Shown: positions 10,247 through 14,165 of the stretch, in pieces
Numbering within the stretch: position 1 is the stretch's first letter
Layout of the letters: each line of letters opens with the position of its first letter
IMG/VR virus record: IMGVR_UViG_3300047480_000273
Location: 1-26,085 of that record
Source: a virus
Strand: one strand, 5' to 3'
DNA length: 26,085 bases
Position numbers and translations under genes: made by a program
Notes under the pieces: generated by a model
What the model saw: the letters and a program-made list of their open reading frames with translations, nothing else
What the model was told of the DNA's origin: nothing
The model's database searches: none

Positions 10247-10354
10247 GCAGTGCAGATAGCAGACTAGGTAGCTCCTAGTCGCCCCAGTTGAGCAAAAGTC
10301 CAGGTCAGATGCGCATAATCCTGGTGCGCAATAGCACTGGGTTCTGTACTGCAC
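10247..10354 (+). ncRNA. Structured RNA with pseudoknot, novel candidate
   Basis: Five helices can be drawn: P1 GCAGTGCAG (10247-10255) with 10344-10352, one G-U; P2 GACTAGG/CCTAGTC (10262-10268/10274-10280); P3 CCCAGT/ACTGGG (10283-10288/10336-10341); P4 CCAGG/CCTGG (10300-10304/10320-10324); and TGCGCA in the P4 loop (10310-10315) with TGCGCA just after P4 (10325-10330), a pseudoknot. The result is a closed three-way junction. A short T-run follows. It lies five bases after the GroES-like stop. I do not match it to a known riboswitch or ribozyme. Confidence 0.7.
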
Positions 10355-10396
10355 ATTTTTAAAGCATTTTACTGAACAGATTAAAAACTAAAAATT

Positions 10397-10603
10397 ATGA
10401 AAAACTTTTTTAAGACAATTATCCTGTTTACCATCATGTCGGTATTAGAATTCATAGCAGTATGAGGAGCTATTACTTATAATAGTGAAACTGAGTTTGG
10501 TTGGAAACTATGGGGTGCTGCTTTATTTTATGGTATTGCTGCATTACCTTCAGCGATATTCTGGAGAAAACAAATTATGTATGTAATAGATTTGGAGGAC
10601 TAA
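10397..10603 (+). pseudogene. Two-pass membrane protein frame with in-frame TGA
   Basis: From the ATG at 10397 the frame reads 22 residues (a hydrophobic segment ending in EFIAV), meets TGA at 10463-10465, then continues open for 45 codons with a second membrane segment (GWKLWGAALFYGIAALPSAIFW) to TAA at 10601. A TGA in place of TGG would restore a 68-residue protein. TGA is used as an ordinary stop by many neighbours, so recoding is unlikely genome-wide. A nonsense mutation, sequencing error or local readthrough fits better. Confidence 0.5.
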
Positions 10604-10605
10604 CT

Positions 10606-10962
10606 ATGAAACCGTTTAATTTAGAAAAAGCATTAGCAGGAGAACCTGTTGTAACCAGAATTGGAGAGGAGGTTACTCAATTACATTTGTTTAATGCATC
10701 AATTACTGATTACCCTTTAGTGGGTGTTTTAAAAGATCAAATAATACATTGGTGTAAAAATGGTAAAGCGTATACTACTGGTGGTAACTCTCATTTAGAC
10801 CTATTCATGGCTCCAAAAGTTATTGAAGGGTGGGTTAATGTATATCAAGAAGGGGATTGTATATGGTTAGGAAGTTGTCACGAATCTGAAAAAGCAGCAA
10901 AAGATACGATTGCAAAAGATGGTACATACATCAAAACAATTAAAATCACTAACGAGGTATGA
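10606..10962 (+). CDS. Hypothetical protein of Bacteroidota phage type
   Basis: 118 residues. The ATG at 10606 is preceded by a GGAGG Shine-Dalgarno-like site (10593-10597), so I prefer it over in-frame upstream ATG codons at 10501 and 10510. The C-terminal half (IEGWVNVYQEGD..WLG..HESEKAAKD..KTIKI) resembles a small family frequent in Flavobacteriia phages, function unknown. It overlaps the next gene by four bases. The stronger ribosome-binding site differs from genes to the left. Confidence 0.7.
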   Translation: MKPFNLEKALAGEPVVTRIGEEVTQLHLFNASITDYPLVGVLKDQIIHWCKNGKAYTTGGNSHLDLFMAPKVIEGWVNVYQEGDCIWLGSCHESEKAAKDTIAKDGTYIKTIKITNEV

Positions 10963-11477
10963 AACAATCAGCAGTAGAATGGTTAGTAAGCCAAATTTGG
11001 AAAAATGAACCACTCGAACATGAACAAAAAGTTATTGAACAAGCTTTCTTAATAGAAAAAAAGCAACTCGGAAAAACATGTGATTGTGTAGTGGATTTTA
11101 GTAATCCAAACCATCATAAAATTATTTCAGCTCCAACACAAACGCCAATACTTGATAATCTTAAAAAACATCTTGATTCTATTACATCTGAAGAGTTTAA
11201 TAGGGAGATAGATGATATTATTAAAAATGATGAATCAACCATGTTAGTATGCGATGATTGCGGTATGGAGGAATGTGACTGTGGTTTAACTGATGATGAA
11301 TTAATCATAAAAGATAAGCATAGTAATATACTAAAATTTGCAGAATGGTTTAAGTCATCTGATTGGGATTGCTTTGACAGTACAGACGGAAGTAATGTTT
11401 ATGCTAACACTCTTATAACAGACAATCTTCTTACAATAGAAGAGATTTATGAACTTTACTTAAAAGAAACAGAATGA
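10959..11477 (+). CDS. Mosaic hypothetical protein
   Basis: 172 residues. The first 30 residues (SAVEWLVSQIW...EQAFLIEKKQ) resemble the start of the unrelated-length protein at 15607 (SSIDWVVEKLEN...). The middle has T-P-I-L-D-N-L-K-K-H-L-D, and residues 95-110 have C-D-D-C-G-M-E-E-C-D-C-G, a possible zinc site. The C-terminal part is acidic and helical. This shuffling of short modules is characteristic of accessory genes in Bacteroidota phages. Function unknown. Confidence 0.68.
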   Translation: MKQSAVEWLVSQIWKNEPLEHEQKVIEQAFLIEKKQLGKTCDCVVDFSNPNHHKIISAPTQTPILDNLKKHLDSITSEEFNREIDDIIKNDESTMLVCDDCGMEECDCGLTDDELIIKDKHSNILKFAEWFKSSDWDCFDSTDGSNVYANTLITDNLLTIEEIYELYLKETE

Positions 11478-11638
11478 AACAACACATTAAAGCACTATTA
11501 GCAACACTAGGAGCAATAGCAGTAGTAGCTGTATGGTGCTGGTTAATTATAACTTACCCACTTACTTTAACTTTTGTTTGTTTAGCTGCTTTATTAACAC
11601 TAGTTTATGTAGGATTTTATGCACATTTTAAACAATGA
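11474..11638 (+). CDS. Small two-pass membrane protein (54 aa)
   Basis: 54 residues: a short basic N-terminus (MKQHIK), then two hydrophobic segments (about 7-27 and 29-49) separated by a short turn. It overlaps the upstream gene by four bases (ATGA), so it is translationally coupled to it. This layout is seen in holin-like and other small phage membrane proteins, but nothing identifies its role. It is the last protein gene before the RNA-rich region. Confidence 0.6.
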   Translation: MKQHIKALLATLGAIAVVAVWCWLIITYPLTLTFVCLAALLTLVYVGFYAHFKQ

Positions 11639-11877
11639 GATAGTAATTAAAATTGAACCTCCAAGCCTCTTAACAATGCACACTATGGAGAGTACCTTGC
11701 AGGTGTGATATCCACTATTGCAAGTAGCTAACACCAAGCTAAAGTCGGGTGTATGTGTTGTTCCCTTGAGAAATGATGAAGAATGTAAGGTAACTACTAG
11801 AGCTTGGTTTGCCCAGTCAGTGTTAGACACCACGAAACACAAGTTACACAACACAGAGGACTTCTCATCCTCAAATT
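11639..11877. other. Structured gene-free stretch upstream of tRNA-like array
   Basis: No protein gene is supported. CTTGCA (11696-11701) pairs with TGCAAG (11719-11724). A long composite helix is formed by CTAACAC (11728-11734) with GTGTTAG (11820-11826), and just inside, CAAGCT (11735-11740) with AGCTTG (11801-11806). It could be a separate RNA or the 5' part of the transcript carrying the tRNA-like elements that follow. Confidence 0.45.
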
Positions 11878-11964
11878 GGGGCACAGAATAGAAAACGTGG
11901 TAGGGTTACCTATAATTAGGATTTAGTTGCCTAAGCCCTCTTGGTTCGACTCCAAGGTGCTCCA
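11878..11964 (+). tRNA. tRNA-like element A, abnormal D and anticodon arms
   Basis: Acceptor GGGGCAC (11878-11884) pairs with GTGCTCC (11957-11963, one G-U). The T arm is canonical: CTTGG-TTCGACT-CCAAG (11940-11956). A putative anticodon stem TTAGG/CCTAA (11916-11920/11930-11934) encloses nine bases instead of seven, with a normal five-base variable region. The stretch between acceptor and this stem is about 11 bases too long and has no standard D arm. CAA follows the discriminator A, so CCA is not encoded. It could be a degraded tRNA or a tRNA mimic. Confidence 0.45.
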
Positions 11965-11969
11965 CAAAT

Positions 11970-12106
11970 AGTCAGGTGGCGGAATAAAGACGCTAAGGGG
12001 GTAAGATAGATAACACATAAGAGGATTACCTAAGGTATAAGCAGGACCACCTGTTATAGCCTTTCCAGTGAGTGTTATCGTACAGGGTTATAACCTGTCC
12101 TGACTA
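11970..12106 (+). tRNA. tRNA-like element B with long extra arm, no anticodon arm
   Basis: Acceptor AGTCAGG (11970-11976) pairs perfectly with CCTGACT (12099-12105). D stem GCG/CGC (11979-11981/11991-11993) in a Leu/Ser-like TGGCGGAA context. T stem ACAGG/CCTGT (12082-12086/12094-12098) abuts the acceptor as in tRNA, but the loop is GTTATAA, lacking the TTCRA signature. In place of an anticodon arm there is GATAACAC/GTGTTATC (12009-12016/12072-12079) enclosing a further bulged hairpin (12034-12060). Total 137 bases. The layout recalls tmRNA, in which a long helix replaces the anticodon arm, but no tag frame is evident. Confidence 0.4.
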
Positions 12107-12259
12107 CAAAAGTTAATCGTGACAAAGGTTAACTTCACCGATGCTCCAACATCGACTCTGCCTACCAAGAGTATAAAACGGGTGGTATTGGTCTCTGAAT
12201 AATAGGGAACACGGCTCACTGCAAGGTAAGTAATGACACCTCGGAAAGACGAGGAACAT
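12107..12259. other. Gene-free spacer with hairpins between tRNA-like elements
   Basis: Contains AAGTTAA/TTAACTT (12110-12116/12128-12134), CGATG-CTCCAA-CATCG (12139-12154) and other short stems, then the GAAAGA-loop hairpin described separately. No protein gene and no group I or II intron core was seen. Confidence 0.4.
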
Positions 12260-12261
12260 AG
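12234..12261 (+). repeat. Recurring GAAAGA-loop hairpin module, copy 1
   Basis: TGACA, then CCTCG-GAAAGA-CGAGG (12239-12254), then AACATAG leading directly into tRNA-like element C. The same arrangement with a different but compensating stem occurs at 12891-12918 before element D. Confidence 0.65.
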
Positions 12262-12330
12262 TCAGGTGGTGTAAGTGGAAACACCCTATGGAAAACGCGG
12301 GAGATACAGGTTCGAATCCTGTCCTCGACT
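12260..12330 (+). tRNA. tRNA-like element C, interrupted at 3' end by HNH insertion
   Basis: Acceptor 5' strand AGTCAGG (12260-12266), D arm GTGT/ACAC with loop AAGTGGAA containing GG (12269-12284), T arm ACAGG-TTCGAAT-CCTGT (12306-12322). The 3' strand here is CCTCGACT, one inserted C away from the perfect complement CCTGACT, which reappears at 12838-12844 after the HNH gene. Between D and T arms, 12286-12305 does not form a 5 bp stem with a 7 base loop. Either the tRNA was disrupted by an insertion or it is a mimic without an anticodon. Confidence 0.45.
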
Positions 12331-12336
12331 GAGCAA
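12316..12336 (+). repeat. Direct repeat, left copy (tRNA 3' end)
   Basis: This 21-base segment and 12831-12848 are the same sequence apart from three extra bases in the left copy. They flank the HNH gene and its promoter like a target duplication. Confidence 0.65.
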
Positions 12337-12341
12337 GATGT

Positions 12342-12369
12342 ATGAGGGAAATAGAAATATTTCCTTCAT
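12342..12369 (+). terminator. Hairpin upstream of HNH promoter
   Basis: ATGAGGGAAAT (12342-12352) pairs with ATTTCCTTCAT (12359-12369), eleven pairs with one G-U, loop AGAAAT. It separates tRNA-like element C from the HNH promoter and could end or process the upstream RNA. No T-run follows at once. Confidence 0.45.
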
Positions 12370-12372
12370 CTC

Positions 12373-12403
12373 TTGACTTTTAATAAAAAGGTTCGTATAT
12401 TTG
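12373..12403 (+). promoter_or_regulatory. Bacteroidota-type promoter for HNH gene
   Basis: TTG at 12373-12375, 20 bases, TATATTTG at 12396-12403. The start codon at 12424 lies about 14 bases past the expected transcription start. The nuclease therefore has its own promoter within the inserted segment. Confidence 0.65.
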
Positions 12404-12423
12404 TGACTACAAAATATGAGTAT

Positions 12424-12831
12424 ATGGAAAGGTTTTTTGATAAAGTAGATAAAACTGATACTTGTTGGTTATGGACAGCAGGATTAAGAGGTAAGACAGG
12501 ATATGGTGCATTTAAACTTAATGGTAAAGTTGTAGATGCACATCGTATATCTTATGAATTACATAATGGTGTAATTCCTAATGGAATGTATGTATGTCAC
12601 ACTTGTGATAATAGAAAATGCGTAAATCCTAATCATTTATTTTTAGGAACAGCTAAAGATAACCATCAAGATGCTGTTACAAAAGGAAGAATTATAAATG
12701 GAAGTAACGGTGATAAATTAAAAAAACACCCAAGCAGAGGCGCATATCTTAGAGGGTGTAGATGTAAAGAATGTAAAGCTATCAATAACATGATGGTTAA
12801 AAGATATAGGGAAGGATTAAAAAAGAAGTAA
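12424..12831 (+). CDS. HNH homing endonuclease
   Basis: 135 residues from the ATG at 12424, which gives the typical family start [18 protein letters not shown]. The HNH core spans 39-75: A-H-R (39-41), V-C-H-T-C-D-N (57-63), [11 protein letters not shown] (66-76). Residues 112-117 form C-x-C-x2-C in a basic C-terminus that probably contacts DNA. Such freestanding HNH nucleases cut a site lacking the gene and spread by repair copying. It lies between two copies of a tRNA 3' end, its stop codon touching the right copy. Upstream in-frame TTG at 12373 overlaps the promoter and is rejected. Confidence 0.88.
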
Positions 12832-12848
12832 TCCTGTCCTGACTGCAA
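12831..12848 (+). repeat. Direct repeat, right copy (tRNA 3' end)
   Basis: Begins in the HNH stop codon. It contains CCTGT-CCTGACT, the exact 3' T-stem and acceptor strands for element C, followed by G and CAA as after a tRNA. It restores the pairing that the left copy lacks. Confidence 0.65.
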
Positions 12849-12871
12849 CCCACTCATGAGGGAAGATTGAG

Positions 12872-12918
12872 TGACGTTGGAAAAGACAACTGACAGCTTG
12901 GAAAGACAAGCAACATAG
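12872..12918 (+). repeat. Tandem GAAAGA-loop hairpins, copies 2 and 3
   Basis: TGAC-GTTG-GAAAAGA-CAAC (12872-12890) is followed by TGACA-GCTTG-GAAAGA-CAAGC-AACATAG (12891-12918), the latter leading into tRNA-like element D exactly as copy 1 leads into C. Stems differ in sequence but keep pairing. Confidence 0.65.
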
Positions 12919-12995
12919 AGAAGTGGCGGAATGGTTACGCATAGTAAGTCTTATATAAGGCTCACTACATACAGGTTCGAATCCTGTCTTCTCTA
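12917..12995 (+). tRNA. tRNA-like element D, extended hairpin instead of anticodon arm
   Basis: Acceptor AGAGAAG (12917-12923) pairs perfectly with CTTCTCT (12988-12994), discriminator A, then CAA. D stem GCG/CGC (12926-12928/12938-12940) with GG in the loop; T arm ACAGG-TTCGAAT-CCTGT (12971-12987). The anticodon position holds TAGT-A-AGTCTT-ATAT-AAGGCT-C-ACTA (12942-12967), a stem of ten pairs with an A/C mismatch and a four-base loop. No register gives a 5 bp stem with a 7 base loop, so no anticodon can be assigned. A prediction program may still report it as an undetermined tRNA. Confidence 0.55.
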
Positions 12996-13010
12996 CAAAC
13001 TTAAAAACTG

Positions 13011-13259
13011 ATGAAAAACATCTTAAAAACAAAGATAGATCTTAATAATACTAAGCTATCTGACATCACAGGAGTAGAACATATTATTCATGCTGAGATA
13101 TGTATAAATATTGATGATATTACTGCAGTTAGACAACATGCTGAGGATGATGAAGAACATATCAATCCTGATTTATCTTTTGTATATCTAAAAAGTGGGG
13201 AGTATTTCATGATATATACTCCGTACGCTGAAGTACTCCAACAGTTAGGTTGGAAATAA
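13011..13259 (+). CDS. Hypothetical protein
   Basis: 82 residues, acidic, with strand-like segments (HIIHAEICINIDDITAV, LSFVYLKSGEYFMIYTPY) that suggest a small beta domain. It starts 16 bases after element D and precedes the radical-SAM gene by 12 bases, so it is probably co-transcribed with it. No family recognised. Confidence 0.68.
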   Translation: MKNILKTKIDLNNTKLSDITGVEHIIHAEICINIDDITAVRQHAEDDEEHINPDLSFVYLKSGEYFMIYTPYAEVLQQLGWK

Positions 13260-13271
13260 AACTATTATCTT

Positions 13272-14165
13272 ATGAATGGTTTAGTAAAAGAGGTTACCAG
13301 ACGGCAACTTAAGATTACTGAATCCGGGAGAAGCACTGACTTCATTGCTCCTAGTTTTGGTCACGGGTGTCTATTCAACTGCAGTTACTGCTACATGAAA
13401 AGACATAGACCTACCGGATTACAGATTGCAAAAAATGTAGATGATGTATTAGATGCTGTAGGTAAGCATCAAGATATTCTTGTTCAGTCTGGATGGATTG
13501 CTGCTAACAAACCTAATCAAACTCATGATACAAGAGTAACCTATGACATAGGTGTAAGTGAAGATCTTGCTTTACATGCTAAGTATTATGACCTAGAGAA
13601 GATATTTAGTTACCCAAAAGGTAATGGTATGCTGTTCTCATTTGCTACTAAATATGTAAACTATGACTTATCACATTTAAATGTACATCCTGACAGAACC
13701 CGTATCAGATTTAGTTTAATGCCGCAGAAGTATGCGGATATACTAGAACCTAACACTAGTCCTATAGAGGAGAGAATATATGCTATTAATGACTTTATAA
13801 AGTATGGTTACAATGTACATATTAACTTCAGTCCTGTTATAGTTACTGATACTTGGTTAGAAGATTACCGGGATTTGTTTATGCTTGTAGATAAGATTGT
13901 ATTTCCCTTGTATAAGAAAACTCATGATATAAGATCAGAAGTTATCTTTCTCACACATAATGAGAAGAAGCATGAGTATAATCTTGCTAATGGGATACCC
14001 GGAGAAGATCTACTATGGAGACCTGACATACAAGAGAACAAGATCTCTAGTAATGGTCAGTTAAATATAAGGTACAACCATAAACTAAAAGCTGATTACA
14101 TATATCAGTTTAAGTGTTTACATGAGTTGCTAATACCTTGGAACACAATACGTTATATCTTTTAG
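13272..14165 (+). CDS. Radical SAM protein, spore photoproduct lyase-like
   Basis: 297 residues. The motif G-C33-L-F-N-C37-S-Y-C40-Y (C-x3-C-x2-C) binds a 4Fe-4S cluster that cleaves S-adenosylmethionine to a 5'-deoxyadenosyl radical. The start of the barrel (D-F-I-A-P-S-F-G-H-G-C) and the following Y-C-Y-M-K-R-H resemble the spore photoproduct lyase family, which reverses a thymine-dimer photolesion. Later segments (RIRFSLMPQKY, YNVHINFSPVIV) fit the remaining barrel strands. I see no second conserved cysteine near the C-terminus clearly equivalent to the one in Bacillus SplB, so the substrate is uncertain. Confidence 0.78.
   Translation: MNGLVKEVTRRQLKITESGRSTDFIAPSFGHGCLFNCSYCYMKRHRPTGLQIAKNVDDVLDAVGKHQDILVQSGWIAANKPNQTHDTRVTYDIGVSEDLALHAKYYDLEKIFSYPKGNGMLFSFATKYVNYDLSHLNVHPDRTRIRFSLMPQKYADILEPNTSPIEERIYAINDFIKYGYNVHINFSPVIVTDTWLEDYRDLFMLVDKIVFPLYKKTHDIRSEVIFLTHNEKKHEYNLANGIPGEDLLWRPDIQENKISSNGQLNIRYNHKLKADYIYQFKCLHELLIPWNTIRYIF

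Follow-up and report, generated by a model that had tools for sequence, protein, structure and literature searches.

The window, i.e., the whole stretch of DNA analysed here, is a virus record of 26,085 bases; the same virus is also represented by a 79-kb IMG/VR contig, in which the region is identical. It harbours an array of tRNA-like elements, leader modules and an inserted gene, which are listed with their coordinates in Table 1. The initial annotation had placed four tRNA-like elements (here A to D) at 11878-12995, and all four are present.

Table 1. Features of the tRNA-like array, in window positions.
Feature	Position	Strand	Description
Array transcript, 5' part	11636..11777	+	of all sequences scanned, only L109, another phage contig, shares it
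Type-2 leader	11754..11872	+	TGTGTTGTTCCCTTGAGAAA ... ACAACACAGAGGACTTCTCATCCTC; precedes element A
Element A	11878..11964	+	7-bp acceptor including one G-U, T arm with TTCGACT, 5-bp arm with 9-nt loop (sequence)
Element B	11970..12107	+	AGTCAGG/CCTGACT; D arm of Leu type; long arm with bulges; T loop GTTATAA; fold z = -3.2
Type-1 leader before C	12234..12261	+	TGAC, hairpin CCTCG-GAAAGA-CGAGG, AACATAG
Element C	12260..12330	+	AGTCAGG / CCTCGACT with one bulge, T arm with TTCGAAT, anticodon stem absent
HNH promoter, Bacteroidetes-type	12373..12403	+	TTG-N20-TATATTTG; kept in L144
HNH homing-type endonuclease gene	12424..12831	+	inserted in the array between C and D
tRNA-like 3'-end remnant	12830..12844	+	15 nt, AATCCTGTCCTGACT, directly behind the HNH gene; same join in L144
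Two extra leader hairpins	12851..12890	+	CACTC...GAGTG and GTTG-GAAAAGA-CAAC (sequence, fold)
Type-1 leader before D	12891..12918	+	TGACA, hairpin GCTTG-GAAAGA-CAAGC, AACATAG
Element D	12917..12995	+	AGAGAAG/CTTCTCT, T arm with TTCGAAT, 10-bp arm with 4-nt loop replacing the anticodon arm

As claimed there, the tops are those of good tRNAs, i.e., they comprise a 7-bp acceptor and a 5-bp T stem, with a TTCRA loop in A, C (which has one bulge) and D, and GTTATAA in B. The acceptor of A is formed by GGGGCAC (11878-11884) and GTGCTCC (11957-11963), that of B by AGTCAGG (11970) and CCTGACT (12105), and that of D by AGAGAAG (12917) and CTTCTCT (12994). The T arms of A and B read CTTGG-TTCGACT-CCAAG and ACAGG-GTTATAA-CCTGT, respectively, the latter with an unusual loop. 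A normal anticodon arm (5-bp stem, 7-nt loop, U33, R37) is found in 0/4 elements. What stands in its place also agrees with the earlier description: TTAGG-ATTTAGTTG-CCTAA with a loop of 9 nt in A, a long bulged arm in B, no stem in C, whose short bottom is similar to that of unit 3 of L109, and TAGTAAGTCTT-ATAT-AAGGCTCACTA in D, i.e., a 10-bp arm that includes one A.C mismatch and is closed by the 4-nt loop ATAT (bottom fold z = -4.2). The Rfam tRNA model scores D with 44.5 bits (above the cut-off) and C with 25.7 bits (below the cut-off); A and B are unmatched, and other Rfam families are also absent at the array. ARAGORN forces element D into a tRNA-Arg(tct). Neither ARAGORN nor Rfam reports a tmRNA in the window, and there is no Rfam intron match in it.

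To the initial annotation we add the conserved leader modules that precede the window elements; many of the related units described below likewise follow one of two such modules. Searched against viral contigs, the type-1 pattern GGAAAGACNNGNAACATAG matches 62 stretches, and a tRNA-like top then follows in nearly all of them. Its hairpin stem varies across contigs with the pairing kept (GCTTG/CAAGC, CCTCG/CGAGG, GCCAG/CTGGC, GCTG/CAGC). The type-2 pattern (TGTGTTGTTCCCTTGAGAAAGG ... ACAACACAGAGGACTTCTCATCCTC) is present in 24 copies on about 20 contigs, with little sequence variation and hence few covariation tests; its loops UGAGAA and UUCUCA are complementary and could possibly form a kissing pair. 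A hypervariable hairpin within the type-2 leader was not above chance, and GOLLD RNA as the origin of the leader was ruled out, the loci being separate. The 5' part of the array transcript shows 88.9% identity to L109 over 144 nt, and a 22-mer taken from it occurs only in L109 and the window virus. A promoter box TAnnTTTG immediately 5' of units was seen in seven cases only, a weak signal. The 54 leader matches in bacterial genomes are mostly due to chance. One real leader was observed on the chromosome of Massilibacteroides vaginae (L307 2385, 2499), where the leader hairpin and AAACATAG stand before two normal tRNA-Asn genes.

The HNH gene and the 3' remnant behind it are further additions. 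The gene product matches Pfam HNH_3 (8e-13) and a PHROG endonuclease (1e-33), and its relative in L144 likewise lies at a tRNA-like element. The array is accessory, since all of 10351-13263 is missing from L002 and L003, the closest relatives of the window virus (SPL-like protein, 90% and 89%). The SPL-like protein itself is encoded at 13272-14165 of the window; it is a radical SAM protein of the spore photoproduct lyase (SPL) family with relatives at 68 viral-contig loci. On a related contig (L037 3200-3556), a tmRNA predicted by ARAGORN adjoins the SPL-like gene. On other contigs, arrays in which ordinary tRNAs are interspersed reach 15 units, counted as exact matches to CCTGTCCTGACT. Bacteroidetes-type promoters, found at the window's HNH gene and at a few units, suggest that the phage hosts are Bacteroidota. 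A search of 396 Bacteroidota genomes yielded no units of the family, and among cultured phages there was no convincing case of AGTCAGG units.

Our set of relatives comprises 188 non-redundant units, drawn from 159 loci in uncultivated phages; searching with patterns built on the top, in addition to the leader patterns, brought in further contigs. Since these relatives have the same kind of top, the four window elements are far beyond chance. The family is absent from Rfam, and we found no published account of it in the open-access literature. Nearly all units share a top composed of AGTCAGG/CCTGACT (the commonest acceptor, 160/188), a tRNA-Leu-type D arm and the T arm ACAGG-TTCGAAT-CCTGT. The D arm is regular in 128 units, 124 of which have the D-loop GG. 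At the 3' flank, A73 is found in 163/188 units and C74 almost always, while CCA is not encoded. The parsing demanded a paired top, and units were gathered with patterns that cover part of it, a bias that the leader-anchored set avoids for the 3' half only: when sites are anchored by the leader alone, T arm and matching acceptor strand are present at 37/41 sites, compared to 3% with shuffled acceptors. The four sites without them comprise window element C with its bulge, the relative of B in which the T loop is odd, one case of a changed T stem and one of an HNH insertion. Anchoring by the 5' 18-mer gives T arm and acceptor partner in 98/105 cases (2% with shuffled acceptors). In L115 (2154-2385), L209, L230 and L233, the D loop of a tRNA-like unit itself encloses a nested mini-tRNA made of acceptor stem and T arm.

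Next to these constant tops, the bottoms differ strongly. A canonical anticodon arm (with U33 and R37 as above) is found in 1/188 units, compared to 359/464 ordinary tRNAs from the same contigs and to 0.27% of shuffled bottoms. The sole exception, L114, has a normal tRNA-Gln arm below the shared top. Loops of 7 nt are not enriched. A correctly placed 5-bp stem with any loop, as an intron-bearing tRNA with its enlarged loop would have, is present in 36/128 units where 21.7 +- 2.6 are expected by chance, i.e., only a minority of units retain a closing stem. The bottoms range in length from 20 to 250 nt, are hypervariable between phages, and have more stable folds than control DNA (mean z -0.90 vs. 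-0.33, p = 3.6e-7). Beyond tRNA-like words, no sequence motif is common to all bottoms, and a search for antisense targets in the phage's own genome gave short chance matches only. Related bottoms were identified for 52 units, which form 20 groups. Within these small clusters of 2-3 sequences each, we count 19 compensated pairs compared to 6.4 in column-shuffled controls (best groups 2, 7, 10 and 16). Since the other 136/188 bottoms stand alone in this set, selection on pairing is established for the clustered minority only. The bottom of window element B recurs in L117 behind a different but still paired acceptor (AGGGGAG/CTCCCTT). Thus, tops and bottoms move independently.

These data bear directly on whether the elements are decayed tRNA genes of a phage tRNA island, the tops of which were kept by chance or by gene conversion. 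Such an origin would fit the location within or near tRNA islands, the D arm of tRNA-Leu type, the combination seen in L114 and the many unique bottoms. However, the pattern of conserved tops with replaced bottoms, from which the initial annotation had argued, is strongly supported across the 159 loci. Ordinary anticodon arms in relatives or random changes in acceptor and T stems had been named as signs of decay; instead, the former are missing apart from L114 and the stems are kept. Tops are intact at about 90% of the leader-anchored sites while anticodon arms are at random level, whereas decayed tRNAs or attachment-site fragments would show damage over all arms. Furthermore, the 79-kb contig of the window virus contains no ordinary tRNA. 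Simple decay is unlikely because the bottoms fold more stably than the control and related ones compensate, and we consider an origin by decay, including chance or conversion, quite improbable overall.

Among known RNAs, ordinary tRNA (RF00005), especially tRNA-Leu, shares acceptor, T arm, Leu-type D arm and A73 with the family but differs by its decoding arm, which 187/188 units lack, and by the family's bottoms of 20-250 nt. The tRNA-like domain of tmRNA also has a tRNA top without an anticodon arm. Still, tmRNA turned out to be a poor parallel, although it had been proposed as a precedent: its D arm is degenerate and has no regular stem, whereas the family keeps D arm and GG, and ARAGORN finds none in the window. 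Plant-virus tRNA-like structures are tRNA tops without decoding as well; they form the 3' ends of viral genomic RNAs, whereas the family forms gene arrays. GOLLD and ROOL resemble the family as phage RNAs near tRNA islands, and GOLLD sometimes carries linked tRNAs (PMC12286853), but neither has an Rfam match in the window. Two related array-bearing phages (L158, L159) have a GOLLD RNA (E about 1e-95) 15-27 kb from the units. The Rfam motif freshwater-1 (RF02979) lies within a different array (L382) but is a separate 62-nt motif outside the window.

The closest parallel in layout is the RNAC of phage T4 (species 1 RNA), a stable RNA of late, Northern-validated expression (PMC9697503) whose function is not known (PMC9697503; PMC3014915). 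Its ends form a T arm and the acceptor CGATTCG/CGTTTCG (with two U-U), and its bottom consists of two long arms. That is, as in the family, a tRNA top is formed by the ends and the anticodon half is replaced by long arms. The top covaries, too: in Enterobacter phages, an acceptor A-U is changed to G-C and the T stem differs in both of its strands. Most of the bottom is replaced in phage Melville, and in phage AV115 the 3' end is part of a predicted tRNA-Asn. Like the window array, the T4 tRNA cluster also holds a homing endonuclease (segB). On the other hand, T4 RNAC has two U-U acceptor mismatches, is single copy, lacks the AACATAG leader and resembles the AGTCAGG top in sequence only at the T loop. 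The homology search in cultured phages lists T4-like enterobacterial phages, and the IMG/VR units are unalignable outside the T loop. The predicted architecture of T4 RNAC thus matches that of the family without detectable homology. T4 RNAD shares only its location in a comparison of this type.

Taken together, sequence and fold comparisons argue that the elements are probably small stable RNAs on a tRNA chassis, in which the variable domain does the work. It is plausible that the units are processed like tRNAs, receive CCA or undergo EF-Tu-like binding because the elbow bases are intact, A73 and C74 are kept and T4 RNAC provides an expressed analogue. Host enzymes (RNase P and those acting on tRNA 3' ends) would cut a polycistronic array transcript at the tops, CCA would be added to each unit, and each unit would persist as a stable RNA that is unable to decode. 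The exchangeable bottom would then act in trans on a target of the host or of a rival phage, differing between phages. In a more far-reaching version, which we put forward tentatively as a possibility with rather less than even chances, the arrays constitute a phage 'display' system, i.e., a constant chassis matured by host tRNA enzymes presents hundreds of structured domains that are cassette-exchanged trans-acting effectors. Such effectors would serve, e.g., counter-defence or inter-phage competition, and T4 RNAC would belong to the system functionally, as a member known for a long time.

Other functions can be assigned to the same architecture. The units could be decoys for host enzymes that bind the tRNA body (anticodon nucleases or other tRNA-targeting defences), offering an elbow without a cleavable loop. 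Elbow, acceptor and A73 are indeed retained while the anticodon loop is missing, the hypervariability is consistent with an arms race, and phage tRNAs that counter tRNA-cleaving defences are documented (PMC12409363). Long, structured and diverse bottoms are, however, unnecessary for a decoy, which renders this reading unlikely. Aminoacylated mimics, serving to deliver an amino acid, to sequester it or to enter the ribosome like tmRNA, have a lower probability still. The Leu-type D arm and A73 would suit them, and LeuRS, SerRS and AlaRS work without the anticodon, which is established for LeuRS in E. coli. But to our knowledge AGTCAGG is not among the known identity sets, no tmRNA features were found, and the D arm differs from that of tmRNA. 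The smallest probability is given to tops that are processing punctuation only, with leader or spacer RNAs between them as the real products: conserved leader modules recur before tops, and in Vibrio and Microcystis phages leaders sit before or near other tRNAs, but structured, covarying domains inside a tRNA-like element are left unexplained. We thus favour stable RNAs with a working variable domain.

The family points to a large unnamed phage RNA class, the members of which are scored by annotation tools as odd tRNAs with essentially arbitrary anticodons; this affects how many tRNAs are counted in phages as well as arguments about codons. Should the bottoms be effectors, phages would offer a new reservoir of functional RNAs. 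For T4 RNAC, a puzzle for decades, the family supplies a comparative framework, where T4 RNAC and Vibrio phages with related parts provide tractable models. In the Vibrio phages 1.012.O, K453 and PS10B.1 (L148 2230-2324; L149 2085-2245; L151 1630-1790), a GAAAGA leader hairpin lies in a non-coding capsid-neck interval. A nearby outer stem GTCAGTTAA/TTAACTGAC holds a tRNA-like element in one of these phages and unrelated sequence in the other two, which, judged by sequence, is cassette exchange in cultured phages. In Microcystis phage Mvi-JY20 (L150 2700-3112), about 300 nt of non-coding DNA end with a GAAAGA leader hairpin directly before a tRNA-Leu(tag), which is normal and has its CCA encoded.
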